Shown: positions 5,507-27,471 of the stretch, one piece after another
Layout of the letters: each line of letters begins with the position of its first letter
Position numbering within the stretch: the first letter of the stretch is position 1
Source: Microcaldota archaeon
Lineage (GTDB): Archaea; Micrarchaeota; Micrarchaeia; Anstonellales; Bilamarchaeaceae
DNA length: 32,235 nt
Direction: 5' to 3'
Assembly (NCBI GenBank): GCA_016212505.1
Contig: JACRGB010000011.1
Location: 1 to 32,235, forward strand
The notes under the pieces: model-generated
Told to the model about the DNA's origin: nothing
What the model saw: only the letters and a program-made list of their open reading frames with translations
Databases searched by the model: none
Position numbers and translations under genes: made by a program

Positions 5507-5682
5507 AGCCTCAGGAGAGATTTGAACTCCCGACTTCCTCCTTCCACCTTTTGGAAAAAGGTGGACCAAAACTGTTCCTCCAATTTCGAAAGTTTACAAG
5601 AGAGGCACTCTACCATTGCACTCGTTTTTGCATTTTTTGCTTTGGGCAAAAAATTAGCAAAAACAAACTGAGTTACTGAGGC
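5507..5682 (-). tRNA. tRNA-Thr (anticodon TGT) with two introns: D-loop and anticodon loop
   Basis: Reading the minus strand from 5682: acceptor GCCTCAG pairs with CTGAGGC (5508-5514); T arm GGGAG/TTCAAAT/CTCTC; anticodon stem CCTCT pairs with GGAGG; loop CTTGTA plus A; anticodon TGT at 5596-5598; discriminator U73 as in archaeal tRNA-Thr. Total 176 nt, mature 75 nt. A canonical 37/38 intron of 52 nt lies at 5543-5594. A second insert of 49 nt (5619-5667) splits the D loop after A14-G15. The D-loop insert folds into a long hairpin (GTTTTTGC, TTTTTTGC, loop, GCAAAAAA, GCAAAAAC) and ends with GAGTG, an exact copy of the exon sequence that forms the 3' side of the D stem. Splice points in the D loop can shift by a base or two. 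Confidence 0.88.
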
Positions 5683-5710
5683 TTAATAAGAAATATGTTC
5701 TGCCTTCTGA

Positions 5711-8518: not shown

Positions 8519-9013
8519 ATGACACAAACTGCTCGTCAAAGACTGAGTCAAAGTTTGACTCGAAGTTTCGGAATTCGTTCATTGCCTTTTGTTGCTGCAA
8601 TAACCAGTTTCGCTCCCTTATTAGGAGGATGCGAAGCTCCCAATCCGAATTACAACCCTGGTCAAATCTGCGAGGTCCCACCTTCTGCAAGAACTCCTGT
8701 GGAAGGATGGTTTACTACAACTCCAAGACCTGTTGGCGGCTTATCGATCAAATATGTGGATGGTATGCTTGGCCCTCGCAGTGGCGATGATCGGGCACTA
8801 ATGGGTGTTGGTTGCGCTCCTCCAACTGCTAAAGGAAACGAATTTGGTATTGTCGCAGTTTCAGCAGGTCTTATTGATTTTTCTTTTACTAACGGAAGGC
8901 AACAAATATCCTTCTTAGTTCAAAACGTCGGATTTGCTGCTCCCGGCAGCCACGATAAATCTTATGAAAATCGGGCCTATTTAAGAGGAGAAGTCTCAGC
9001 AACAAATTATTAG
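8519..9013 (+). CDS. Putative secreted lipoprotein, unknown function
   Basis: 164 residues. A basic N-region (RQRLSQSLTRSFGIR) precedes a moderately hydrophobic segment ending FAPLLGGCEAP, a good lipobox with Cys38. The rest (about 125 residues) is beta-rich with three further cysteines and motifs such as GWFTTTPRPVGGLSIKYVDG. I do not recognise the family. The gene is leaderless, divergent from guaAA, and its stop (9011-9013) is immediately followed by the 33-nt inverted element and hairpin array. Together with the next gene it forms a small accessory block just upstream of the RNA polymerase operon. Confidence 0.65.
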   Translation: MTQTARQRLSQSLTRSFGIRSLPFVAAITSFAPLLGGCEAPNPNYNPGQICEVPPSARTPVEGWFTTTPRPVGGLSIKYVDGMLGPRSGDDRALMGVGCAPPTAKGNEFGIVAVSAGLIDFSFTNGRQQISFLVQNVGFAAPGSHDKSYENRAYLRGEVSATNY

Positions 9014-9018
9014 TTCGG

Positions 9019-9051
9019 CATATACTCAACCAAGTAAGTTTCTCCGATTTT
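9019..9051 (-). repeat. 33-nt inverted element, copy A
   Basis: The minus strand of this stretch is identical, 33 of 33 bases, to 19298-19330 on the plus strand. It begins AAAATCGGAGAAACTTACTT and ends GGTTGAGTATATG. Here CTCAACCAA (9025-9033) pairs with TTGGTTGAG (9073-9081), so the element forms one arm of a hairpin. Confidence 0.9.
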
Positions 9052-9272
9052 GTTTCAGAAGCTTTATCTCAGTTGGTTGAGGATGGCAAAAAGCTGAAAA
9101 GCTTTTTGACTGTGTCCCAAAAACTCCGCGAGTTTTTGGACAGTCGTGAAACCGTAGTTTCACAACATCTTGAAAGCCGCTGCTTTCAAGGACATAGTTG
9201 TGCCATGGAAAATTTCTTAAATTTTCCATAATTGACCGTAACGACGGTCAATGCCAAATAATTAATTTGGCA
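9025..9272. repeat. Array of at least eight consecutive hairpins
   Basis: In order: CTCAACCAA (9025-9033) with TTGGTTGAG (9073-9081); AAAAAGC/GCTTTTT (9088-9107); TGTCC + AAAAACTC with GAGTTTTT + GGACA (9113-9142); GTGAAAC/GTTTCAC (9146-9163); CTTGAAAGC/GCTTTCAAG (9169-9190), clasped by CACAAC/GTTGTG (9161-9202); ATGGAAAATTT/AAATTTTCCAT (9205-9229); TTGACCGT/ACGGTCAA (9232-9251); TGCCAAAT/ATTTGGCA (9252-9272). Loops are only 3-6 nt and spacing between stems is 0-14 nt. Stems differ in sequence, so this is not a tandem repeat or CRISPR. It fills the 369-bp gap between two unknown genes (9014-9382). Confidence 0.88.
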
Positions 9273-9349
9273 CAGGATAATCAAACAAAAATCGATTCAG
9301 ACTGATTCAAAAACTTATTTTACAAACATCAAGACTCTTCGAAAGATTC

Positions 9350-9358
9350 ATTTAAAAG
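9350..9358 (+). promoter_or_regulatory. TATA box for the gene at 9383
   Basis: ATTTAAAAG is centred about 29 nt upstream of ATG 9383, which is the spacing of a leaderless archaeal promoter. It lies downstream of the hairpin array, so the array is not in the predicted transcript of this gene. Confidence 0.6.
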
Positions 9359-9382
9359 CATGAGCTAACACTAATCACTGTC

Positions 9383-10156
9383 ATGGCAGTTCAAAGACGA
9401 ATCGTATTTAATGCCGAAAGATTTGGACAAATTGAAGTTGCTTTGAAAAAAGCAGGCTTTGTTGATTGCGGAAAAAACCCACATACTAATCTTCCAGTTC
9501 TTGTTGATAAGCCAAGATCATCTGGTTTTAGGCAACGACTGGCAGTAACCTCCAGTAGTGGGAGCAGCTCTACCGAAAAAAAGGGATGGGAGTATGATCT
9601 TAGTGTATATTGCGAAGTAGCTGCCCCTAAAGACCGCGCTATTTTGTTCGCCTTAAGAGAATTAGGCTATCTTTACAATCGGGATATTCGCTATTCAGGT
9701 GCTTCCGGGTACTTCCCTCTGCCTGATAGGAGTTGTCCTTGTTTTGGTATTTCTGTCGCACCTGAGGTTGTTGTGGTTTCTGATACTTTCCATCTTGATC
9801 GCCTGATTGAGGCCAGCAAACAGCTCATCGCAGCTCTCGCAGCCTTAAAGGGCAATACGATACTCAAAACTGCAAGAGACGCCCAACTCTCTGCCCAGGA
9901 ACTTAGGACACACTCCAGTTTGCCAATGGGCAATGCATTTGGAAGAGATGTAGTAGCCATAGTCAGGCTCAGTCAAAAACTGGTTGAAAAAATGGATGCA
10001 GCGTACGATGCAGGAGTAGATTTCCTCAGGGTAAATGCGCAAATCTCTGATGCAATGAAATTAGTTTGTCCTAATTATGTATCCCATATGCGTTCAATAC
10101 GGCCTAGCGAGATCTCTGTCAGGTCAGCTGCGATTTCCAAAAGCGCTCATTTATAA
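9383..10156 (+). CDS. Hypothetical protein of unknown family
   Basis: 257 residues, leaderless ATG. The N-terminal half is alpha/beta (RIVFNAERFGQIEVALKKAG, then a strand-rich YDLSVYCEVA and YFPLPDRSCPCFGISVAPEV). It has a Ser-rich linker at about 54-65 and a CPCFG motif near 117. The C-terminal half (about 130-257) is mainly helical with alanine-rich helices. No signal peptide or membrane segment is visible, so it should be cytoplasmic. I cannot name a family. It lies between the hairpin array and rpoH, and the TATA element of the rpo operon overlaps its last codons. Confidence 0.6.
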   Translation: MAVQRRIVFNAERFGQIEVALKKAGFVDCGKNPHTNLPVLVDKPRSSGFRQRLAVTSSSGSSSTEKKGWEYDLSVYCEVAAPKDRAILFALRELGYLYNRDIRYSGASGYFPLPDRSCPCFGISVAPEVVVVSDTFHLDRLIEASKQLIAALAALKGNTILKTARDAQLSAQELRTHSSLPMGNAFGRDVVAIVRLSQKLVEKMDAAYDAGVDFLRVNAQISDAMKLVCPNYVSHMRSIRPSEISVRSAAISKSAHL

Positions 10157-10158
10157 AC
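10149..10158 (+). promoter_or_regulatory. Probable promoter of the rpo operon
   Basis: ATTTATAAAC overlaps the 3' end of the preceding gene and would start transcription near 10178. That leaves a leader of about 27 nt containing GGTGGTG (10192-10198) before the rpoH TTG start. Confidence 0.45.
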
Positions 10159-10204
10159 ATTTCCAAATAAGTTTAATTCTCTATTCGGTAGTGGTGGTGC
10201 TAGC

Positions 10205-10459
10205 TTGAAGAAAAAGAAAGAAAATGCCCCGACAGTCGACGTCTTGTCTCACAATCTTATGCCTCAAATGAAGGTTCTTGGAGCCAGTGAAAAAAATAAG
10301 ATCCTTAGTGAATTCTCTATCAATTCGAGCCAGCTTCCTAAATTTTATTCTACTGATCCTGCAGTGCTTGCGCTTAAGGCACAGGCAGGAGATGTAATCA
10401 AAATCGAGCGAAATGACGGCACAAGCAAATATACCGCTTATCGGGTAGTAATCGAGTAA
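10205..10459 (+). CDS. rpoH: DNA-directed RNA polymerase subunit H (Rpo5)
   Basis: 84 residues equivalent to the C-terminal assembly domain of eukaryotic Rpb5: VLSHNLMPQMKVLGASEKNK, then STDPAVLALKAQAGDVIKIE and TAYRVVIE at the end. Start is TTG at 10205, preceded by GGTGGTG. A short lysine-rich N-terminal extension (KKKKENAP) precedes the conserved part. It leads the operon rpoH-rpoB2-rpoB1-rpoA1-rpoA2-rpl30e-nusA, the standard archaeal order, and lies 25 bp from rpoB2. Confidence 0.96.
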   Translation: MKKKKENAPTVDVLSHNLMPQMKVLGASEKNKILSEFSINSSQLPKFYSTDPAVLALKAQAGDVIKIERNDGTSKYTAYRVVIE

Positions 10460-10484
10460 TTTAGAATAATTTTTTGGTGGGTTT

Positions 10485-11939
10485 ATGGTAGAAGGTCTAG
10501 TAGAGTCGTATTACCGTGTGAACACTTTGGTCAATCAGCAGTTGCAATCTTACAACAAATTTGTTGAGAGTGGCATCCAGCAGGTTATCGATCGGATCGG
10601 AAAAATCTCAACTAATGTTGAAGGTTTCGAGTTAAAACTTGGTAAAGTCCGTATCGAGCAGCCAAGATACTACGAAGTTAAGGGTGGGTATCGGCAAATT
10701 TTCCCAAACGAGGCAAGGCTAAGGAACCTTGGTTATTCAGCCCCTGTTTTCCTCGAAATTATCCCTGTATTTAATGGCGTAGAGCGGCCAGTTTATTCTG
10801 ATGTATTTATTGGCGAAATCCCGGTAATGCTCAAATCCAAACTTTGCTACCTTTCAAACATGCGAAGGGAAGAACTAATTGAAAATGGCGAAGATCCTGA
10901 TGATCCAGGAGGATATTTCATAATTAACGGTAGCGAGCGTGTCTTGGTCAGCATTGAAGACCTGGTCCCAAATAAATTAATGGTAACAAAAGAAAGAAAC
11001 GGAATTGTTTCAAAAATATTCTCAACTTACTTTGGTTTTAGGGCCAGGTGCGTAGTCGAGCGAAACAACGACGGGGTTTATAGCGTAGAATTCCCATCCA
11101 CCCCGCCAGGAATCTCGATTGTCCAGCTTTTGCGTGTTCTTGCATTTGAAAAAGATACTGAAATTCTTGCTGCATTTTCATCCGAGCGCCACATCCGAAA
11201 TGATGTCATCCTGAACTTAGAAGGTGAACAATCAAAAACCCGCGAAGAAGCAGTTGATTTGCTTAGCAGGAAACTTTCTCCAGGCCAGCCACCAGAATTT
11301 AGGCTGAACCGAATGGAAAATCTTCTTGATAGTTATTTGCTCCCGCATATAGGGGTAACCAAAGCTGCAAGATTGGATAAGGCCAAATACTTAGTTAAAA
11401 TGGGTGAGCGGGCAACAAGAGTTGCATACCGCGAAATTGCCCCTGATGATAAGGACCATTATGCAAATAAGAGAGTAAAGCTTGCAGGCGACTTAATGGA
11501 AGATCTTTTCCGTTATGCGTTCCAGTTCCTCATCAAGGATTTAGTTTATCAGGCATCAAGGGCTGAAGCAAGAGGACGAAGATTGCAAGTGCACACGCTG
11601 ATTAGGCAAGATGCACTAGGTGATCGTGTAAAATATGCGATGGCAACAGGAAACTGGGTAGCCGGCCAAACTGGTGTTTCACAGTTACTTGACCGTGTGA
11701 GCTACCTTTCTACTATATCACACCTCCGAAGAATCATTTCCCCGCTCAGCAAAAAACACCCCCACTTTAAGGCAAGAGACCTTCACGGAACACACATTGG
11801 AAAATTGTGTCCAAACGAAACTCCAGAAGGTCCAAGCTGCTCGCTTGTGAAAAACCTTTCCGTTATGGCTGAAGTTTCAATAGGTGCTGAAGAAGCGGAA
11901 ATTGAGAGGATTCTCAAAACCTACGAGGTCAAGCAGTAA
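10485..11939 (+). CDS. rpoB2: DNA-directed RNA polymerase subunit B'' (N-terminal half of B)
   Basis: 484 residues corresponding to the upstream half of Rpb2: protrusion and lobe with GGYFIINGSERVLVSIEDLVPNK, and the fork region SYLSTISHLRRIISPLSKKH followed by HGTHIGKLCPNETPEGPSCS. It ends at ILKTYEVKQ, the normal split point of euryarchaeal-type B''/B'. Ribosome site GGTGGG lies 7 nt before ATG. Together with B' it forms the catalytic wall and the fork of the polymerase. No missing conserved blocks were noticed. Confidence 0.98.
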   Translation: MVEGLVESYYRVNTLVNQQLQSYNKFVESGIQQVIDRIGKISTNVEGFELKLGKVRIEQPRYYEVKGGYRQIFPNEARLRNLGYSAPVFLEIIPVFNGVERPVYSDVFIGEIPVMLKSKLCYLSNMRREELIENGEDPDDPGGYFIINGSERVLVSIEDLVPNKLMVTKERNGIVSKIFSTYFGFRARCVVERNNDGVYSVEFPSTPPGISIVQLLRVLAFEKDTEILAAFSSERHIRNDVILNLEGEQSKTREEAVDLLSRKLSPGQPPEFRLNRMENLLDSYLLPHIGVTKAARLDKAKYLVKMGERATRVAYREIAPDDKDHYANKRVKLAGDLMEDLFRYAFQFLIKDLVYQASRAEARGRRLQVHTLIRQDALGDRVKYAMATGNWVAGQTGVSQLLDRVSYLSTISHLRRIISPLSKKHPHFKARDLHGTHIGKLCPNETPEGPSCSLVKNLSVMAEVSIGAEEAEIERILKTYEVKQ

Positions 11940-11959
11940 ATCTTAGGTGATTTTTAGAA

Positions 11960-11996
11960 GGTGAAATTTTTATGGGTTGAACGGTGTTCCGTTCAA
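11960..11996 (+). promoter_or_regulatory. Leader before rpoB1: ribosome site, two-codon ORF and hairpin
   Basis: GGTGA (11960-11964) precedes ATG GGT TGA (11972-11980), a Met-Gly-stop ORF with ideal spacing. The stop lies in the left arm of a perfect hairpin, TTGAACGG (11977-11984) / TGTT / CCGTTCAA (11989-11996). A second GGTGA at 12009-12013 then serves the real rpoB1 start at 12021. Confidence 0.55.
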
Positions 11997-12020
11997 ATAT
12001 AAAAAAATGGTGATTTTTTT

Positions 12021-13865
12021 ATGGTTATGAAGAAACGAAAAAGAAAATCGATTCCAGAACTTACGAGCATATTTCTTAATGGCCGGCTGATCGGTACGCA
12101 TGCAGATGGCAAATCGCTTGCAACCCGTTTGAGGGAGCGCCGAAGAATGAACGAACTTAGCAACCAGGTCAATATCTATTACAACGCACGTTTGAACGAA
12201 CTTTATATCCTCACTGATAAAGGCAGGGTAAGAAGACCATACATCGTAGTCGAGAATGGAAAATCCCGTCTTACAACTGATATCATGAACAGGATAAAGA
12301 ACAATGAACTCAACTGGAACCACCTGGTCAAATTAGGGATAATCGAATTCCTTGATGCGCAGGAAGAAGAAAACTGCCTTATTGCAATAAAAGAGGTGGA
12401 AATAACCCCGGACCACACCCATCTTGAAGTGGATTCATCAAATATTTTCGGTGTTGTTTCTGGCGTGCTGCCATACCCTGAATACAATTCTTCACCAAGA
12501 ATTACCATGGCCTGTGCCATGACTAAGCAGTCCCTCGGTATTTACTCTGCAAACTTTGCCCATCGTTATGATACGCGGGCATATGTTATGTATTATCCGC
12601 AGGAGCCTATGGTACAGACCTCGCTTTATAAGGCCCTTCGGCTTCGTGAAAAAGCCGCAGGACAAAACTGCGTTGTAGCACTTACTTCTTACCACGGATA
12701 TAATATGGCTGATGCTATTATTGTAAACCGCTCTTCAATCGACCGGGGCCTCGAGCGGGTAACAATGTTCAAAACATACGAAACAGAAGAGCGCATGTAC
12801 CCTGGCGGACAGCGCGATAAGATCGAGCTTCCGACTCCAGAAGTAGTTGGTTATCGGGGAGAAGAGGCATACAAGCACTTGGCTGAAGACGGGATTGTCC
12901 TTCCGGAAAGCGAAGTTGACGGCAAGGATGTATTAGTTGGTAAAACCTCGCCACCAAGATTCTTGGAAGAAATCTCTGTTTTCGGTGCAGTTGAAGAAAA
13001 GAAAAGGGAAAGTTCGCTTTCGCTAAAAAGCGGGGAGAAAGGGAAAGTCGATTCAGTGCTTATCACCGAAGGCCCAAGCGGAAACCGTTTGGTCAAGGTA
13101 AGGATCAGGGGAATCAAGACCCCAGAAGTCGGAGACAAATTAGCTTCAAGGCACGGGCAAAAGGGTGTTATTGGCTTAGTTGTCCCGCAGGAAAATATGC
13201 CATTTACTGCCTCTGGAATTGTTCCTGATTTAATTGTAAATCCACACGCTATCCCATCGAGAATGACTGCAGGCCATTTGCTTGAAACATTAGGCGGGAA
13301 AGCAGGTTCATTAGGCGGAACGCTTATGAATGGTACTGCATTTAGCGGAAACACAGAAGATGAATATCGTACCATCCTAAAGAAAGCCGGCTTCAACGAA
13401 TATGGCGAAGAAACGCTCTACGATGGTTTGACCGGAAGACAAATCACAACAAAAATATTTATCGGTGTAGTTTACTATCAGAGGCTGCACCACTTGGTTT
13501 CAAACAAGATGCATGTGCGATCACGCGGTCCGGTCCAATTACTTACCCACCAGCCGACCGAAGGACGTGCACGTGAAGGTGGTCTCCGGTTCGGGGAAAT
13601 GGAACGTGACTGCCTTATCGGCTATGGTGCCAGCATGCTGATTAAGGAAAGGCTGCTTGAAGAGAGCGATAAAACAATCCAGTTAGTCTGCACCGAATGC
13701 GGTTCAATTGCAACACATGATTATGCCCGCAACCGCGACGTTTGCCCGATTTGCGATTCAGAAAATGTACAGCCAGTGGAAATGAGCTACGCGTTCAAGC
13801 TATTGCTTGATGAAATTAAATCGTTGTATATTTTCCCAAGGATGATTTTGAAGGATAAAGGTTAA
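12021..13865 (+). CDS. rpoB1: DNA-directed RNA polymerase subunit B' (C-terminal half of B)
   Basis: 614 residues matching the downstream half of Rpb2. It opens with IPELTSIFLNGRLIGTHADG. The hybrid-binding/active-centre region includes GDKLASRHGQKGV, and NPHAIPSRMTAGHLLETLGG follows. RSRGPVQLLTHQPTEGRARE and GGLRFGEMERD come near the C-terminus, with a zinc ribbon CTECG...CPIC. ATG 12021 has GGTGA 7 nt upstream; ATG 12027 is a possible alternative. The B''/B' split is a normal archaeal state, not a mutation. Confidence 0.98.
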   Translation: MVMKKRKRKSIPELTSIFLNGRLIGTHADGKSLATRLRERRRMNELSNQVNIYYNARLNELYILTDKGRVRRPYIVVENGKSRLTTDIMNRIKNNELNWNHLVKLGIIEFLDAQEEENCLIAIKEVEITPDHTHLEVDSSNIFGVVSGVLPYPEYNSSPRITMACAMTKQSLGIYSANFAHRYDTRAYVMYYPQEPMVQTSLYKALRLREKAAGQNCVVALTSYHGYNMADAIIVNRSSIDRGLERVTMFKTYETEERMYPGGQRDKIELPTPEVVGYRGEEAYKHLAEDGIVLPESEVDGKDVLVGKTSPPRFLEEISVFGAVEEKKRESSLSLKSGEKGKVDSVLITEGPSGNRLVKVRIRGIKTPEVGDKLASRHGQKGVIGLVVPQENMPFTASGIVPDLIVNPHAIPSRMTAGHLLETLGGKAGSLGGTLMNGTAFSGNTEDEYRTILKKAGFNEYGEETLYDGLTGRQITTKIFIGVVYYQRLHHLVSNKMHVRSRGPVQLLTHQPTEGRAREGGLRFGEMERDCLIGYGASMLIKERLLEESDKTIQLVCTECGSIATHDYARNRDVCPICDSENVQPVEMSYAFKLLLDEIKSLYIFPRMILKDKG

Positions 13866-13900
13866 TGTTTGTTAGTGAAGAAATGGCCCAAATGAAATAA
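13865..13900 (+). other. Mini-ORF overlapping the rpoB1 stop (TAATG)
   Basis: The rpoB1 stop TAA shares its last A with an ATG that opens an 11-residue ORF, MFVSEEMAQMK, ending TAA at 13898-13900, 19 nt before rpoA1 ATG 13920. It could be a re-initiation relay between B' and A'. Translation is unproven. Confidence 0.3.
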
Positions 13901-13919
13901 AAATAAAGGTGTTACAAAA

Positions 13920-16532
13920 ATGGAAATCCAAAAAGTACTTGATATGCTGAAGTTTTCTTTATTCTCGCCGGAAATGGTCCGGAAAATGTCTTCGGCAAAA
14001 ATAATTGTGCCGGATACTTACGATGATGATGGTTATCCAATCGATGGTGGCCTTGTTGACACAAGACTTGGTGTTGTTGATCCCGGGTTGCGATGCAAAA
14101 CCTGCGGTGGAAGAGTAAAGGAATGCCCCGGCCACTTTGGCCATATTGACCTGGTAAGGCCAGTTATGCATGTTGAATTTGCAAAACACATTTATTTGGT
14201 ACTTAAATCTACCTGCCCTTCCTGCCACAAGCTGATGGGGAAGAAAATCGCGGTCACTGAAATCGAAGAAGAGGACGCAAAACCGGTTTTGAAAGAAGCT
14301 CCAAAAGAAGGAAGTTTGCTTGATGTTGCCGCAGAAGTAGCCAAAGAAAAGGCAGATAAGGCTGCAGAAAAAGCTGAAAAGGCAGAAGCAAAATCACGTG
14401 CAAAAACCAAATGCCCGCACTGTTCATTTGAATTGCCAGAAATCAAATTGCTTAAACCAACAACGATTTTCAAGGACAAGGAAACTTTGCTTCCAACTGA
14501 TATTAGAGACTGGCTTGCTTCAGTTACTGATTCAGATCTGCGTGAACTTGGATTTGATTCCACTTACGCAAGGCCCGAATGGATGATTGTCACCGCATTA
14601 CCTGTCCCGCCAGTAAATGTCCGGCCGTCAATTACCTTAGAAACCGGTGAACGAAGCGAAGATGACCTTACCCACAAATTAGTCGATATTATCCGAATCA
14701 ACCAAAAACTTGAGGCGAACATTAATGCAGGTGCCCCCCAATTAATTATAGAAGATCTTTGGGAGCTTCTCCAGTATCACGTTACAACTTACTTTGATAA
14801 TGAAACCGCAAATATCCCTCCGGCAAGGCATCGGAGCGGAAGGCCACTTAAGACCCTGGCCCAGCGTCTTAAGGGTAAGGAAGGAAGATTCAGATACAAC
14901 CTATCTGGTAAGCGTGTTAATTTCTCAGCAAGAACCGTCATATCTCCTGATCCGAGAATTTCCCTTGATGAAGTAGGGGTTCCGCAGCTTATTGCAGAAG
15001 AATTAACCATTCCAATGCACGTTACCGAGTGGAATCTTGAGCATTGCAAAAAAATGATACTTGCCGAAGGATATCCAAGGGCAATTTATATTATTCGTTC
15101 GGATGCTAAACGCCTCAAAGTGGGTGAGACCCCAGAAATGCGAAAAGAGCAGGCAGAATCGCTTAAAGTTGGCTGGTCAATTGAGAGGCAAATTGTCGAT
15201 GGCGATATTTCAATATTTAACCGGCAGCCATCATTACACAGAATTTCCATGATGGCTCATCGCGTTCGGGTATTGCCTGGAAAAACCTTCAAGCTAAATC
15301 CCGTCGTAGTCAGTCCATATAACGCAGACTTTGATGGCGATGAAATGAACCTGCACATCATGCAGGGCGAAGAAGCACAGGCCGAGGCCCGCCACCTTAT
15401 GAAAGTAGAGGGGCAGGTGATTTCCCCAAGGCATGGACACGCCATAATCAAACCCCAGGAAGATCATGTATCTGGGCTTTATTTCCTCACTTATGAAGGT
15501 GCAAATTATTCAAAAGAAGAAGCTGCAAACATGCTCTACTTAATCGATATAACTGACCTGCCAGAGCCTGATTTGAAGGATGATCGTTATTCAGGAAAAC
15601 TTTTGTTTTCACAATTGCTTCCCCAATCATCAAATATCAAATTAACCTCGAAAATGGGGGAAGAAATCCTAATTAAAAACGGCAAACTGCTAAAAGGCGC
15701 AATAGAAAGCAGGACAATGGAAGGTGAACTCCTTGAGCACATGTTTGTTGCTGAAGGGCCAGAATTTACAAAAACTTTCCTTGACCGGGTTACAAAACTT
15801 GCTTTGCAGGCAATTTCATTGCACGGGCTTAGCGTTTCGCTAAAAGACTACACTGTTTCTCCAAAAGGTATGGAAAAAGTCAAGGAAATTACAAGCAAAA
15901 TGAACCGTGAAATTGACAACCTTATCATGCAATACAAGAACCGCTCGCTCGAGCGTGCTGCCGGCATGGCGCTTAAGGAAACCTTAGAAGGCCTAATTGT
16001 CGAAATAACCAGCAAGGCCCGTGAAGATGTCGGGAAGGTAGTTGAAAGTGATCTCGGCTTGGAAAATCCCTCCATCATCATGGCTAAGATCGGCGCAAGA
16101 GGAAGCCTGCTTAATGCAATCCAGATGTCAGCACTTGTCGCGCAGCAGACTGTCCGCAGCAAGAGATTAACTCGTGGCTACAGAAAAAGAACTCTTCCAT
16201 ACTTCAAGGAAGGCGCACTTACTCCTGCAGAACGAGGCTTTGTTTATTCATCATTCCACAAGGGCATGACCCCGTACGAATATATTTATGCAGCTATGGG
16301 TGGCCGTGAAGCATTGGTCAATACGGCTATCCGTACCGCCCGATCCGGTTACATGCAGAGGCGTCTGATTAATGCCCTGCAGGATCTGGTTGTGCAGGAT
16401 GATATGACTGTCCGAAATGCCGATATGAGCATTATCCAGTTCATATATGGTGGGGATGCAAAAGACCCGATGTACGCTTCAAAATCTGAAGTAATAGAGA
16501 ATGTAAAGCAGGATGATATTGATACGGCATAA
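13920..16532 (+). CDS. rpoA1: DNA-directed RNA polymerase subunit A' (N-terminal part of A)
   Basis: 870 residues. The clamp zinc site CKTCGGRVKECPGHFGHIDL lies near 59-78. The catalytic metal loop YNADFDGDEMNLH is near 466-478; the three Asp that bind the catalytic Mg are present. The bridge/funnel blocks RPSITLETGERSEDDLTHKL and RSARTARSGYMQRRLINALQ-type segments follow. Between the second zinc knuckle pair (CPSCHK ... CPHC) lies an extra Glu/Ala/Lys-rich segment of about 50 residues (roughly 113-160, KADKAAEKAEKAEAKSR), likely a protruding helix of the clamp. Ribosome site GGTG lies 10 nt before ATG. Ends before the trigger loop region, which is in A''. Confidence 0.98.
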   Translation: MEIQKVLDMLKFSLFSPEMVRKMSSAKIIVPDTYDDDGYPIDGGLVDTRLGVVDPGLRCKTCGGRVKECPGHFGHIDLVRPVMHVEFAKHIYLVLKSTCPSCHKLMGKKIAVTEIEEEDAKPVLKEAPKEGSLLDVAAEVAKEKADKAAEKAEKAEAKSRAKTKCPHCSFELPEIKLLKPTTIFKDKETLLPTDIRDWLASVTDSDLRELGFDSTYARPEWMIVTALPVPPVNVRPSITLETGERSEDDLTHKLVDIIRINQKLEANINAGAPQLIIEDLWELLQYHVTTYFDNETANIPPARHRSGRPLKTLAQRLKGKEGRFRYNLSGKRVNFSARTVISPDPRISLDEVGVPQLIAEELTIPMHVTEWNLEHCKKMILAEGYPRAIYIIRSDAKRLKVGETPEMRKEQAESLKVGWSIERQIVDGDISIFNRQPSLHRISMMAHRVRVLPGKTFKLNPVVVSPYNADFDGDEMNLHIMQGEEAQAEARHLMKVEGQVISPRHGHAIIKPQEDHVSGLYFLTYEGANYSKEEAANMLYLIDITDLPEPDLKDDRYSGKLLFSQLLPQSSNIKLTSKMGEEILIKNGKLLKGAIESRTMEGELLEHMFVAEGPEFTKTFLDRVTKLALQAISLHGLSVSLKDYTVSPKGMEKVKEITSKMNREIDNLIMQYKNRSLERAAGMALKETLEGLIVEITSKAREDVGKVVESDLGLENPSIIMAKIGARGSLLNAIQMSALVAQQTVRSKRLTRGYRKRTLPYFKEGALTPAERGFVYSSFHKGMTPYEYIYAAMGGREALVNTAIRTARSGYMQRRLINALQDLVVQDDMTVRNADMSIIQFIYGGDAKDPMYASKSEVIENVKQDDIDTA

Positions 16533-16548
16533 ATTGATCCGTTGATTG

Positions 16549-16590
16549 TTTTCGGTTTTCAGTTCCCAGTTTTGGGTTCTGGATTTTGAA
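16549..16590 (-). repeat. Degenerate 7-nt-periodic spacer repeat, copy 2
   Basis: On the plus strand: TTTTCGG, TTTTCAG, TTCCCAG, TTTTGGG, TTCTGGA, TTTTGAA in steps of seven. The minus strand gives units such as CTGAAAA and CCGAAAA, close to units of the array at 4690-4770 (CCGAAAC, ACGAAAA). It lies between rpoA1 and rpoA2. Confidence 0.6.
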
Positions 16591-16608
16591 AACAAATAAA
16601 ATATTCAT

Positions 16609-16647
16609 GGTGAAAAAATATGACATTGAAATTCTGAAAAATTTCAA
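16609..16647 (+). promoter_or_regulatory. Leader before rpoA2: ribosome site, five-codon ORF and hairpin
   Basis: GGTGA (16609-16613) precedes ATG ACA TTG AAA TTC TGA (16620-16637). An overlapping hairpin has arms TTGAAATT (16626-16633) and AATTTCAA (16640-16647). The layout copies that before rpoB1, down to TTGAA/TTCAA at the ends of both hairpins. The real rpoA2 start follows at 16690 with its own GAGGATGA. Confidence 0.45.
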
Positions 16648-16689
16648 ATATAAAAATTTCCGGAAGGAAAATATGAGGATGAAATTTTT

Positions 16690-17748
16690 ATGACTGAAAA
16701 AGATAAATCAAAAAAATCAAATGTTATGATTGCTCCATTTGAAGCAGTGGGAGTGGTGTGCGCACAATCTATTGGAGAACCAGGTACCCAGATGACGATG
16801 CGTACTTTCCACTATGCAGGTGTTGCAGAACACGTGCCGACCGGTCTTCCGAGGCTTATCGAAATTGTCGATGCAAAAAAAGAGCCGAAAAAGGCAATTA
16901 TAGATATGCACTTAAAAAGTTCCTATGCCAGAAGCAGCACTGAAGCAGAAAAAGTCGCAAAGGATATAGCCAGCGTTTTCGTTTCTGATGTTGCCAGTGT
17001 CGAGGATGACCTTGAAAATCTTGTTATTGCAGTCCGTTTCAACGAAAAAGACGGCAAGGCACAAGGAATAACTTTCCACATGCTCAAAAAAGCATTAGAA
17101 ACTGTTGCTCCAGATACGAAAATGGATGAGCACCAGAACATAATAACGTTAAAGCCTTCAAAGGAAAAAACTTCGGCAAAAGGTGAGAAGAAAAAATTGA
17201 CTGCCAAGGCGGTCCGCAAACTTACCCAAAAAGTAAAGGACGCAATTGTCCGGGGGGTAAAAGGAATTTCGCGGGCTGTTGTAATCAAGGGAGATAATGA
17301 ATATTTTGTAAGGGCAGGCGGATTCAACGTTCTTGGGGCATCCATCCACGCAGGTGTCGATGCGAACAGGATTTACACTAATAATATAAAGGAAATGGAA
17401 AAAGTTTATGGTATCGAAGCCGCACGCGCCGCAATAATAAAAGAAATACACGATGTCATGGAAATGCAAAAACTTTCTGTTGATATAAGGCACATCATGC
17501 TCATTGCCGATGCCATGACCTATTCAGGTACGGTTAAATCAATAGGAAGGCATGGTTTATCAGGCGAAAAAGTAGGTGTCCTTGGAAGGGCAGCTTTCGA
17601 AGAGACAATAAAGCACCTGATAAATGCAAGTGCAACTGCTGAAGAGGAAAAGCTTATCGGAGTAACTGAAAATATCATTGTCGGCCAGACCGTTCCAGTT
17701 GGAACAGGAAAAATAAAGCTTATAATGAAAGGAAAGAAAAAGGAGTGA
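16690..17748 (+). CDS. rpoA2: DNA-directed RNA polymerase subunit A'' (C-terminal part of A)
   Basis: 352 residues. [20 protein letters not shown] then [20 protein letters not shown] (18-57) contains the trigger-loop and cleft region. [12 protein letters not shown]-type and [20 protein letters not shown] blocks mark the C-terminus. A lysine-rich insertion sits near 155-185 ([15 protein letters not shown]). It completes the largest subunit with A'. Ribosome site GAGGATGA precedes ATG with spacing like that of rpoB1. The last 24 bp, encoding MKGKKKE and stop, are repeated 77 bp downstream (17802-17825). Confidence 0.98.
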
Positions 17749-17848
17749 GGATTTTGGGGTGCAGCACTTTTGTCAGTAGGTTTTGTAAGACAAAAGGGCT
17801 CATGAAAGGAAAGAAGAAGGAGTGAAGAAGACTGGGAAATAATCCCAG
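17725..17848 (+). repeat. Duplicated rpoA2 tail and two hairpins before rpl30e
   Basis: ATGAAAGGAAAGAAAAAGGA at 17725-17744, completed by GTGA to 17748, recurs at 17802-17825 with one difference (AAA to AAG). Between the copies lies a hairpin with arms CTTTTGTC (17767-17774) and GACAAAAG (17789-17796). After the second copy is CTGGGA/TCCCAG (17832-17848) with a 5-nt loop. The second copy is itself a seven-codon ORF, MKGKKKE. Confidence 0.75.
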
Positions 17849-17879
17849 CTAAATTGTATGTAAAATTTGGGTGAAATCA

Positions 17880-18374
17880 ATGACAGAAGAAGAAAAAACT
17901 GCTAACGAAGAAGAAACTACTGAAGATACTCCGGAAGAGGATACTGAAGCTACTGGATCAGATGAAGAAACCGACTCAGGCGAAGAAACTGGTTCTGTAG
18001 CTGGTTCAGAAGTAAAAGGAGCATCAAAAAAGAAAAAAATAGTAAAAGAAAAGAAAGTTGTCCGCAGAAGGAAGAGTAAGAAAGAAAAAGAGCGTCCCTT
18101 GGCAGCAGCAATTAGGCTTGCAGTGGAAAGCGGTAAGGTGGAATTTGGTTCTAGGTCCGCGCTTTCATCTGATAAAAAGGTCAAGGCATTTGTTGTTTCT
18201 GGAAACACTCCGGAAATTAAATCACAATTGATGGAAAAATCCTTGCCAGTAATAGAATTTGACGGCACCTCCATCGAACTTGGTTCAATTTGCGGCAAGC
18301 CATTTTCCGTTTCAGTGCTATCAATTTATGAGGAAGGGTCTTCAAACATCCTTTCTCTTCTTAAGAAGAAATAG
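17880..18374 (+). CDS. rpl30e: 50S ribosomal protein L30e with long acidic N-terminal extension
   Basis: The C-terminal roughly 95 residues match archaeal L30e: AAAIRLAVESGKVEFGSRSA, VKAFVVSGNTPEIKSQL, then PVIEFDGTSIELGSICGKPF and a final strand and helix. L30e is a kink-turn-binding large-subunit protein. The gene is 164 codons against about 100 in most archaea. The extra N-terminus is about 45 residues of almost only Glu, Thr, Ser, Asp and Gly, then a Lys/Arg block KKKKIVKEKKVVRRRKSKK. ATG 17880 is chosen over GTG 17871 because GGGTGA (17869-17874) is its ribosome site. Position between rpoA2 and nusA is the standard archaeal one. Confidence 0.93.
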   Translation: MTEEEKTANEEETTEDTPEEDTEATGSDEETDSGEETGSVAGSEVKGASKKKKIVKEKKVVRRRKSKKEKERPLAAAIRLAVESGKVEFGSRSALSSDKKVKAFVVSGNTPEIKSQLMEKSLPVIEFDGTSIELGSICGKPFSVSVLSIYEEGSSNILSLLKKK

Positions 18375-18383
18375 GTATTTTAG

Positions 18384-18824
18384 ATGGAACTAACTGGCGA
18401 TGACTTAACGATTTTTTCTACCTTTGAGAAAATAACCCATGTAATGCCTACCGACTACCTGTCGACTACTAATTCAGTTATTTTTGTTGTCGATCCACAG
18501 TCCCTTGGCAAGGCAATTGGTGCAAAGGGAGCCAACATTGAAAAATTGGGTGGGATTTTCCGTAAGCGGGTTGTTATTATCGGCGATAGCGAGCAGCCCG
18601 AAGGCTTTGTAAGGAGCTTTTTTGGTAACATTAAGATTGAGAATATCGAAGAGCGCAATGTCATGGGTGAGCGCGTTTTTCTTGTTACTGTGGATGAAAA
18701 AGACCGCGGAATCGCTATTGGCCGTGAAGGCGAGCGCGTTAAGGCAGCAAAAACATTGCTCAAGAAAAAATTCAATGCCACCCTCCAGGTCCGGACCCAA
18801 GGTGGGATGCGCTCTAGGATTTGA
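18384..18824 (+). CDS. nusA: Transcription factor NusA-related KH protein
   Basis: 146 residues, two KH domains and none of the N-terminal or S1 domains of bacterial NusA, as usual in archaea. KH1 has VVDPQSLGKAIGAKGANIEK (GxxG = GAKG). KH2 has VDEKDRGIAIGREGERVKAA (GREG). It probably binds RNA emerging from polymerase. The start follows the L30e stop by 9 bp. In most archaea rps12 and rps7 come next; here the operon ends and a convergent accessory gene follows after 25 bp. Confidence 0.95.
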   Translation: MELTGDDLTIFSTFEKITHVMPTDYLSTTNSVIFVVDPQSLGKAIGAKGANIEKLGGIFRKRVVIIGDSEQPEGFVRSFFGNIKIENIEERNVMGERVFLVTVDEKDRGIAIGREGERVKAAKTLLKKKFNATLQVRTQGGMRSRI

Positions 18825-18849
18825 CGATCTGCTGGTGCCTCCAACCCAA

Positions 18850-19194
18850 TTAATTGTGCGTAGTGTGAATAGGTCCTTCTGTTTCCGGTCGTAATTTAAA
18901 TCCATGCAGCCCGGATTCGGTTTTTGGTATTACCCCCATTTCTAAAATCCTATTGTCTACTTTGACTTTTGGATAATAATTAGTTTTTTTCGCTTTTTTC
19001 TTTTTTTTAATCTGTATTGCAGCAGCTTTCAGGAGTAGTTGTTCTATTGCGAGAGATTTTTTGAAACCTTCATTATGCTTATGGTCCTTTTTACGTTGAT
19101 GACAGGTATAGCAGATATGTTCCCCTCCGTCTGTCCATCGAAACTCTTCAATTAAGGTGCCTGAAAACATACACCTCTTCATATACACCCCCAT
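18850..19194 (-). CDS. Small Cys/His-rich protein, unknown family
   Basis: 114 residues from ATG 19192-19194 (TTG 19197 and ATG 19182 are alternatives). The N-terminus MKRCMFSG...WTDGGEHICYTCHQRKKDHKH contains C, CxxC and three His residues. It resembles a zinc-binding or HNH-like fold, but the usual HNH histidines cannot be assigned. A poly-lysine stretch (QIKKKKKAKKTNYYPKVKVD) follows, which suggests nucleic-acid binding. The TATA-like CTATATAAAG on the minus strand (19214-19223) is about 25 nt upstream, so it should be leaderless. It converges with nusA. Confidence 0.6.
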   Translation of the reverse strand: MGVYMKRCMFSGTLIEEFRWTDGGEHICYTCHQRKKDHKHNEGFKKSLAIEQLLLKAAAIQIKKKKKAKKTNYYPKVKVDNRILEMGVIPKTESGLHGFKLRPETEGPIHTTHN

Positions 19195-19213
19195 CAACTT
19201 TATGGATTTTTTT

Positions 19214-19223
19214 CTTTATATAG
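19214..19223 (-). promoter_or_regulatory. TATA box of the small Cys/His-rich gene
   Basis: CTATATAAAG on the minus strand is centred about 25 nt before ATG 19194. The hairpin with arms GTTGACC/GGTCAAC begins 15 bp further upstream. Confidence 0.6.
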
Positions 19224-19237
19224 TTTTTTCAATTTAA

Positions 19238-19285
19238 GTTGACCTTCTCACACTTTTGGCGGTTTTGGTGTGTTATATGGTCAAC
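19238..19285. repeat. Hairpin with GTTGACC/GGTCAAC arms
   Basis: Arms GTTGACC (19238-19244) and GGTCAAC (19279-19285), with an inner CACAC/GTGTG pair. The arm motif TTGACC/GGTCAA recurs in the hairpin at 9232-9251, and CGGTCAA occurs once more at 19465-19471. Confidence 0.55.
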
Positions 19286-19297
19286 ATTAAGGGCTGA

Positions 19298-19330
19298 AAA
19301 ATCGGAGAAACTTACTTGGTTGAGTATATG
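19298..19330 (+). repeat. 33-nt inverted element, copy B
   Basis: Identical over 33 bases to the minus strand of 9019-9051. Here it is the left arm of a large imperfect hairpin. CGGA, AAACTTA, TTGGTT and TATA (within 19303-19328) pair with TATA, AACCAA, TAAGTTT and TCCG (within 19339-19365) around a loop of about 10 nt. The right arm is a diverged copy of the same sequence. Confidence 0.9.
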
Positions 19331-19406
19331 TTTGTGCCTATATACAAACCAAATAAGTTTTTCCGACTCGGTTTTTTGTATTTTACCTCATTTGGTTTTG
19401 TATAGT

Positions 19407-19431
19407 TGATCCAACTTTTTTAGTTGGATCA
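19407..19431. repeat. Perfect 10-bp hairpin
   Basis: TGATCCAACT (19407-19416), five T residues, AGTTGGATCA (19422-19431). A direct repeat GTATAG(T/C)TGATCC flanks it (19400-19412, 19432-19444). The 315-bp stretch 19198-19512 contains this, the two other hairpins and two promoters, and no gene that I can support. Confidence 0.6.
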
Positions 19432-19477
19432 GTATAGCTGATCCTCCGGTTTACATCGAATTTTCGGTCAATCGTCT

Positions 19478-27341: not shown

Positions 27342-27471
27342 TCCCGTCGGCCTGACTTGAACAAGCAACCTTCCCGTTTCCAACTTTTAGGAAAAGTTGG
27401 TCAAAACTGACTCGTTAAAAGCGAGCAAAGCAAAACTACAGCGGGACGCTCTACCATTGAGCTACGACGGG
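27342..27471 (-). tRNA. tRNA-Tyr (anticodon GTA) with an anticodon-loop intron
   Basis: Minus strand from 27471: acceptor CCCGTCG pairs with CGACGGG (27343-27349), with the archaeal C1-G72 pair and discriminator A; D arm GCTC/AATGGTA/GAGC; anticodon stem TCCCG/CGGGA; loop CTGTAG plus A (anticodon GTA); T arm GCTTG/TTCAAGT/CAGGC. Total 130 nt, mature 72 nt. A 58-nt intron at the canonical 37/38 place is at 27378-27435. It contains CAGTTTTG followed by a hairpin CCAACTTTT/AAAAGTTGG that resembles the tRNA-Thr anticodon intron. Confidence 0.9.

Follow-up and report, generated by a model that had tools for sequence, protein, structure and literature searches.

A probable mobile double-hairpin element with nested modules in a family of Micrarchaeota

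Introduction

The ERIC/IRU sequences of enterobacteria are imperfect palindromes whose length variants arise from inserts at set internal sites. Two other systems are known in which palindromic DNA enters genes. Rickettsia palindromic elements (RPE) are at times found as in-frame palindromic inserts inside ORFs (reviewed in PMC10969869), and sponge mitochondrial DNA carries hairpin and double-hairpin repeats (DHE/RHE) with in-frame inserts in genes (PMC2800124). Descriptions of mobile elements are scarce for Micrarchaeota, as for the other DPANN archaea, and a literature search returned no paper linking DPANN with miniature inverted-repeat elements, nor Micrarchaeota with hairpin repeats.

The repeat described here was found in a 32,235-nt stretch of Micrarchaeota DNA, called the window throughout. 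It resembles RPE in being small, dispersed and palindromic, in occupying a reduced genome and in lying sometimes in frame inside ORFs (three copies, for one of which a homologue lacks the element), but it is archaeal, mostly intergenic and shows modular nesting at fixed internal points, and the likeness is one of design. With DHE/RHE it has in common hairpins standing side by side in pairs, dispersal through spacers, in-frame gene inserts and compensatory stem changes, while differing in its cellular archaeal host and in its distinct module types, which are conserved between genera and nest hierarchically at specific sites. It recalls ERIC/IRU both as an imperfect palindrome and in its length variants, which also stem from inserts at set internal sites, although the taxon is another and the archaeal inserts are themselves double hairpins that nest further. 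Like MITEs with a TA target (IS630/Tc1-mariner type), it is short, multicopy and non-coding, with TA at both ends, and its weak terminal inversion, TATNCNGANCC, may be a further likeness; unlike them, it has no parent transposon that could be found, DDE_3 is not associated with it, and the duplication is putative. Dispersed intergenic hairpins are also typical of the REP/BIME/REPIN repeats with their RAYT, whereas the archaeal element has neither the GTAG/CGTC tag nor, in the draft genomes, an association with a Y1 transposase.

Since in-frame inserts in Rickettsia and double hairpins in sponge mitochondria are already known, and no report from DPANN or Micrarchaeota was found, what is new is a double-hairpin element, MITE-like and nested in an ordered way, for which a mechanism of movement is proposed. 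Its architecture, conserved in six genera, its in-frame insertions and its ordered nesting offer a tractable case of the growth and movement of palindromic DNA in very small genomes, and make the family a target for finding the mobilising enzyme.

Copies of the repeat in the window

A preliminary description had drawn attention to two identical 33-nt sequences in opposite orientation, placed in the spacers outside rpoH-nusA, and both the identity and the placement are borne out. A repeat search of the window recovers the arms 9019-9051 (minus strand) and 19298-19330 (plus strand) as 100% complementary over 33 nt, a match expected by our own arithmetic about 1e-11 times in 32 kb, and these are the only two copies in the 1.48 Mb assembly at up to three mismatches. 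The separate hairpin partners proposed for them are recovered by folding: the arm at 9019 pairs with its own left arm at 9063-9085, so that 9019-9085 is a native hairpin, while the arm at 19298 pairs with the inverted 3′ arm of its neighbour, two oppositely oriented copies pairing with each other in the region 19298-19365. The supposed degraded third copy at 19339-19365 belongs to a complete minus-strand copy at 19339-19436, of which it forms the 3′ arm.

A complete minus-strand copy thus lies at each place, accompanied at the second by a degenerate plus-strand copy. Copy 1 (9019-9279, minus strand, 261 nt) is a complete composite with nested hairpin modules, running from TATCC at 9279, where the composite end reads TTATCCTGTGCC, to GTATATG at 9019. 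Its downstream hairpin, H2 (9019-9086, minus strand; 85.4/80 bits for R1/R2), has the first 33-mer as its 3′ half. Its upstream hairpin, H1 (9198-9279, minus strand), has outer arms at 9198-9204 and 9268-9274, the 3′ arm being interrupted at 9205-9252 by a double hairpin; an undisturbed version of this H1 lies on contig C28 of the same genome, just upstream of 50136. Between H2 and H1, an array of four hairpins read from the sequence (9087-9190: 9087-9108, 9117-9139, 9146-9163 and 9169-9190), three of them with perfect stems of at least 9 bp, occupies an insertion point between CTAT and CC that is fixed in other copies. The nest as a whole spans 9087-9272.

Copy 2 (19275-19330, plus strand; R1 23.4 bits, E 0.015) is an H2 with a degenerate left arm and an intact 3′ half, the second 33-mer, and it pairs most strongly with the neighbouring copy. 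That neighbour, copy 3 (19339-19436, minus strand; R1 68.3 bits, R2 72.1 bits), is a complete, unnested composite of length 98, made of H2 (19339-19405), the H1 hairpin (19407-19431) and a TATAC end (19432-19436), all on the minus strand; its nearest match is at 51275-51342 of contig C24 in the same genome.

Architecture of the repeat unit

When either site was used for similarity searches, partial copies appeared on further contigs of the same genome, about a dozen copies in all. Eight partial copies align almost without gaps and define H2, by itself a clear palindrome, with an outer stem CTCAACCAA/TTGGTTGAG containing covarying positions, then a C.C mismatch and TGAG/CTTA, and further in an internal loop RTAAA/GAAAA, above which the tip varies; its conserved core is AACCA..../ACTTA.TTGGTT. 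In most copies H1 stands directly upstream, and the basic unit of about 97 nt, TATCC-[H1]-CTATWC-[H2]-GWATA, starting with TATCC or TATAC, folds as two adjacent hairpins, H1 then H2. Written more fully it is TATCC-YGANNCAA..TTGNNTCR-AT-CTATWC-H2-GWATA. Each end has a TA that hardly varies and belongs to the element, whose terminal inversion is imperfect.

The outer stem covaries. Among 55 aligned copies, cells of the outer stem in which both sides change number 79 against 39 in shuffles (0 of 500), and sliding the stem partners abolishes the signal. Sense cells with G.T are as many as those with A.C (82:82), a ratio that favours neither strand for folding and does not discriminate between RNA and DNA folding. 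At the gathering score, Rfam matched only tRNA in the window and in stretches L026 and L031, with no match to the element.

Nested modules

Unit length has its mode at 97 nt, with a conserved composite of 97-99 nt and longer forms near 143-147, 154-157, 200-205 and 261 nt. In the longer forms the extra DNA is placed at two constant positions. At the first, point (i), within the 3′ arm of H1, lies module B, a double hairpin of 48-54 nt (CCAGTGA..TCACTAGCTCTCC..GAAGAT) present with compensatory stem changes in seven genomes (G000, which contains the window, G008, G029, G032, G033, G039 and G042). At the second, point (ii), which separates CTAT from the foot of H2, G042 and G029 carry module C, a double hairpin of 57 nt, and inside module C lies a further double hairpin, module D, which is identical at 53 of 64 positions between G042 and contig C4 of G000. 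Two copies of G042, on C61 and at C60:4494, are almost alike in H1 and H2, the former without and the latter with the C nest. Copy 1 of the window uses the same two points, with a double hairpin at point (i) that differs from module B and the four-hairpin array at point (ii).

Some modules are thus common to several genera, nesting goes several levels deep, and two adjacent hairpins are the repeated unit in H1 plus H2, in module B and in module D. A tentative reading, rather doubtful at present, is that a hairpin-recognising insertion activity places distinct double-hairpin modules into other hairpins at set points, so that the elements grow like Russian dolls (the basic unit A taking B and C, and C taking D) with a module set spread between genera.

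Other arrangements of this kind were seen in passing. Further double-hairpin families occur in the genome of the window (L023:3127-3250, L030:7873-8046 and L031:2060-2164), with GGAATTTGCAAATTCC and GGACAAATTTTTGC.., and a nested two-hairpin module, GTAGCGAAC../GGAGAAATTC.., has one orientation in L023 and the reverse in L030. In G008, on C8, C75, C76 and the ends of C63 and C67 (L128, L130, L132, L134 and L136), a larger repeat of about 290 nt, with TTCGCCA inverted ends and near-identical copies at contig ends, encloses unit A together with module B; it is perhaps a recent larger mobile unit.

Distribution among genomes

Seventy-three copies were collected, a lower bound, in a single family of Micrarchaeota, where they come from at least 8 of 43 genomes and at least 6 of 13 genera, and a search of 301 genomes of the phylum returned the same 8 genomes only among the matches listed. 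A first covariance model gave at least 13 matches in G000 and at least 13 in G008, of the same genus, a few of them being the opposite strand of the same copy, and none among the matches listed in 15 other members of that genus. A second model, built from 18 copies and yielding counts that are lower bounds, gave at least 29 matches in G042, a genome that holds near-identical copies. Viral contigs had no match to one strict pattern of the element.

The six nearest named relatives of RpoA′ from the window (contig C44) are Micrarchaeota-type MAGs, 69-77% identical. Perfect hairpins with a stem of at least 10 number 18.5 per 100 kb in G000 (the window, L021, L023, L024 and L034-L040, mostly not chosen by hits) against 6.6 in 11 element-free relatives (L241-L252), shuffles giving 3 and 4 in all.

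Mobility and function

Evidence of movement comes from contig C63 of G008, where the whole unit lies in frame within an ORF for a PMT-like membrane protein. The homologue of this ORF in G007, the one element-free homologous site found, has no element: query residues 83-115 are absent and the flanking matches are contiguous, the exact insertion ends being left unfixed by the low identity of the homologue (39-54%). Two more in-frame copies lie in predicted ORFs (G042:C20 and G033:C185), which brings intragenic copies to 3 of the 73 collected, the family being mostly intergenic. From TAT to ATA the in-frame copies measure 98 (G008:C63), 98 (G042:C20) and 77 (G033:C185); subtracting 2 leaves a number divisible by 3 in every case, in keeping with insertion at TA and duplication of the TA, whereas the intergenic mode of 97 does not fit. 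Repeats of 2-8 bp that would mark a duplicated target site were sought at several offsets, and none was found beyond the terminal TA that belongs to the conserved ends.

The dispersed family, its conserved architecture, its patchy presence, the near-identical copies of G042, the element-free site, the in-frame copies and the fixed-point modules together make it very likely that this is a non-autonomous, MITE-like mobile double-hairpin element. The unit would fold when single-stranded, during replication or transcription, and a host or IS-encoded enzyme could then move it in trans, joining it at a TA dinucleotide, as the TA at both ends and the in-frame lengths suggest; the same or a similar activity may put further modules into hairpins. 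The 33-mers would accordingly be, in all likelihood, the 3′ halves of two copies of such an element, so that a remnant of a small mobile element is the one of the three roles proposed earlier that fits. Their perfect identity probably reflects a conserved 3′ half together with recent common descent or conversion.

Searches for DDE_3 and Y1 transposases in the 43 family genomes did not find the mobilising enzyme. DDE_3 of the IS630 type occurs in 2 of the 43 (1 of 8 positive genomes) and Y1 in 10 (2 of 8 positive and 8 of 35 negative), neither being associated with the element, and IS630 and IS200/IS605 were set aside as mobilisers on this count, weak evidence because drafts break at IS elements.

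The rival explanations bear on the pair or on the family as a whole. As sequences bracketing the polymerase operon rpoH-rpoB″-rpoB′-rpoA′-rpoA″-rpl30e-nusA (10205-18824, plus strand), the 33-mers had been viewed as a special pair and a possible site for inversion of the block. Perfect 33-bp inverted repeats 10 kb apart would suit such a site, but it is highly improbable: o7816 (minus) followed by rpoH (plus), with the operon in the same direction, keeps its order and orientation in 10 of 10 genus relatives whose contigs reach that far, only half of H2 is common to the pair, and about a dozen further copies have no special arrangement. Being the 3′ half of H2 in a dispersed repeat family, the pair is not special, and the operon is bracketed by accident, among many copies. 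That the two sites encode trans-acting complementary RNAs is scarcely credible; their inverted placement does make the transcripts complementary, but this holds for any inverted repeat copies, the other copies lack the paired arrangement, and the structure is conserved without strand preference, as the 82:82 ratio indicates.

Two further readings concern the family. Mobilisation as a REP/BIME-like repeat by a RAYT (REP-associated Y1 transposase) or an IS200/IS605 TnpA would account for a hairpin-based element without clear duplication, and IS-like ends do occur at contig breaks of the same genome; it is unlikely given a consensus without the GTAG/CGTC tag, a hairpin foot that reads CTATWC/GWATA, and Y1_Tnp in just 2 of 8 positive against 8 of 35 negative genomes, as far as drafts that break at IS elements allow. 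Distinctly unlikely for the family is a cis-acting leader, in which H1 and H2 would serve the following gene as a 5′ regulatory RNA or as a promoter-proximal element, immediately ahead of its start codon. Nine of the 73 copies end in ..ATATG with the ATG opening the downstream ORF, gyrA of G008 among them, and under a stricter rule an ORF is opened by 8 of 22 ATATG-ending copies against 7 of 53 background TATATG (p=0.03). This enrichment is weak, however, most copies lie elsewhere, including 3′ of genes (copy 1) and inside ORFs, and G.U is not favoured over A.C. Start-codon adjacency is no more than suggestive of a regulatory role in some copies.

Surroundings of the copies

In G000 the interval between o7816 and rpoH contains copy 1 and two orphan genes, 8519-9013 and 9383-10156. 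Neither has a Pfam match or a match at this locus in the 12 relatives examined, and the first has a lipoprotein-like N-terminus.

Positions 1-144 of the window and the ends of contigs C3, C20, C22, C40 and C46 have in common a repeat of about 140 nt with a CCCCACCC-TTTA-GGGTGGGG hairpin. Its peptide is weakly like the tail of a Y1 transposase (37% over 27 aa, E 7e-4) and has no Pfam match; judging from the sequence, an IS200/IS605-like element is probably where the assembly breaks. Another common type of contig end is found on C1, C15, C20, C24 and C40.

An Rfam match at 27342-27471 (minus strand), missed by ARAGORN, marks a tRNA gene whose length of 130 nt implies that it carries an intron or introns. 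A 179-nt stretch with hairpin-bearing inserts, present on two contigs (window 5521-5699 and L023:11015-11193), may be an intron-containing tRNA gene pair.
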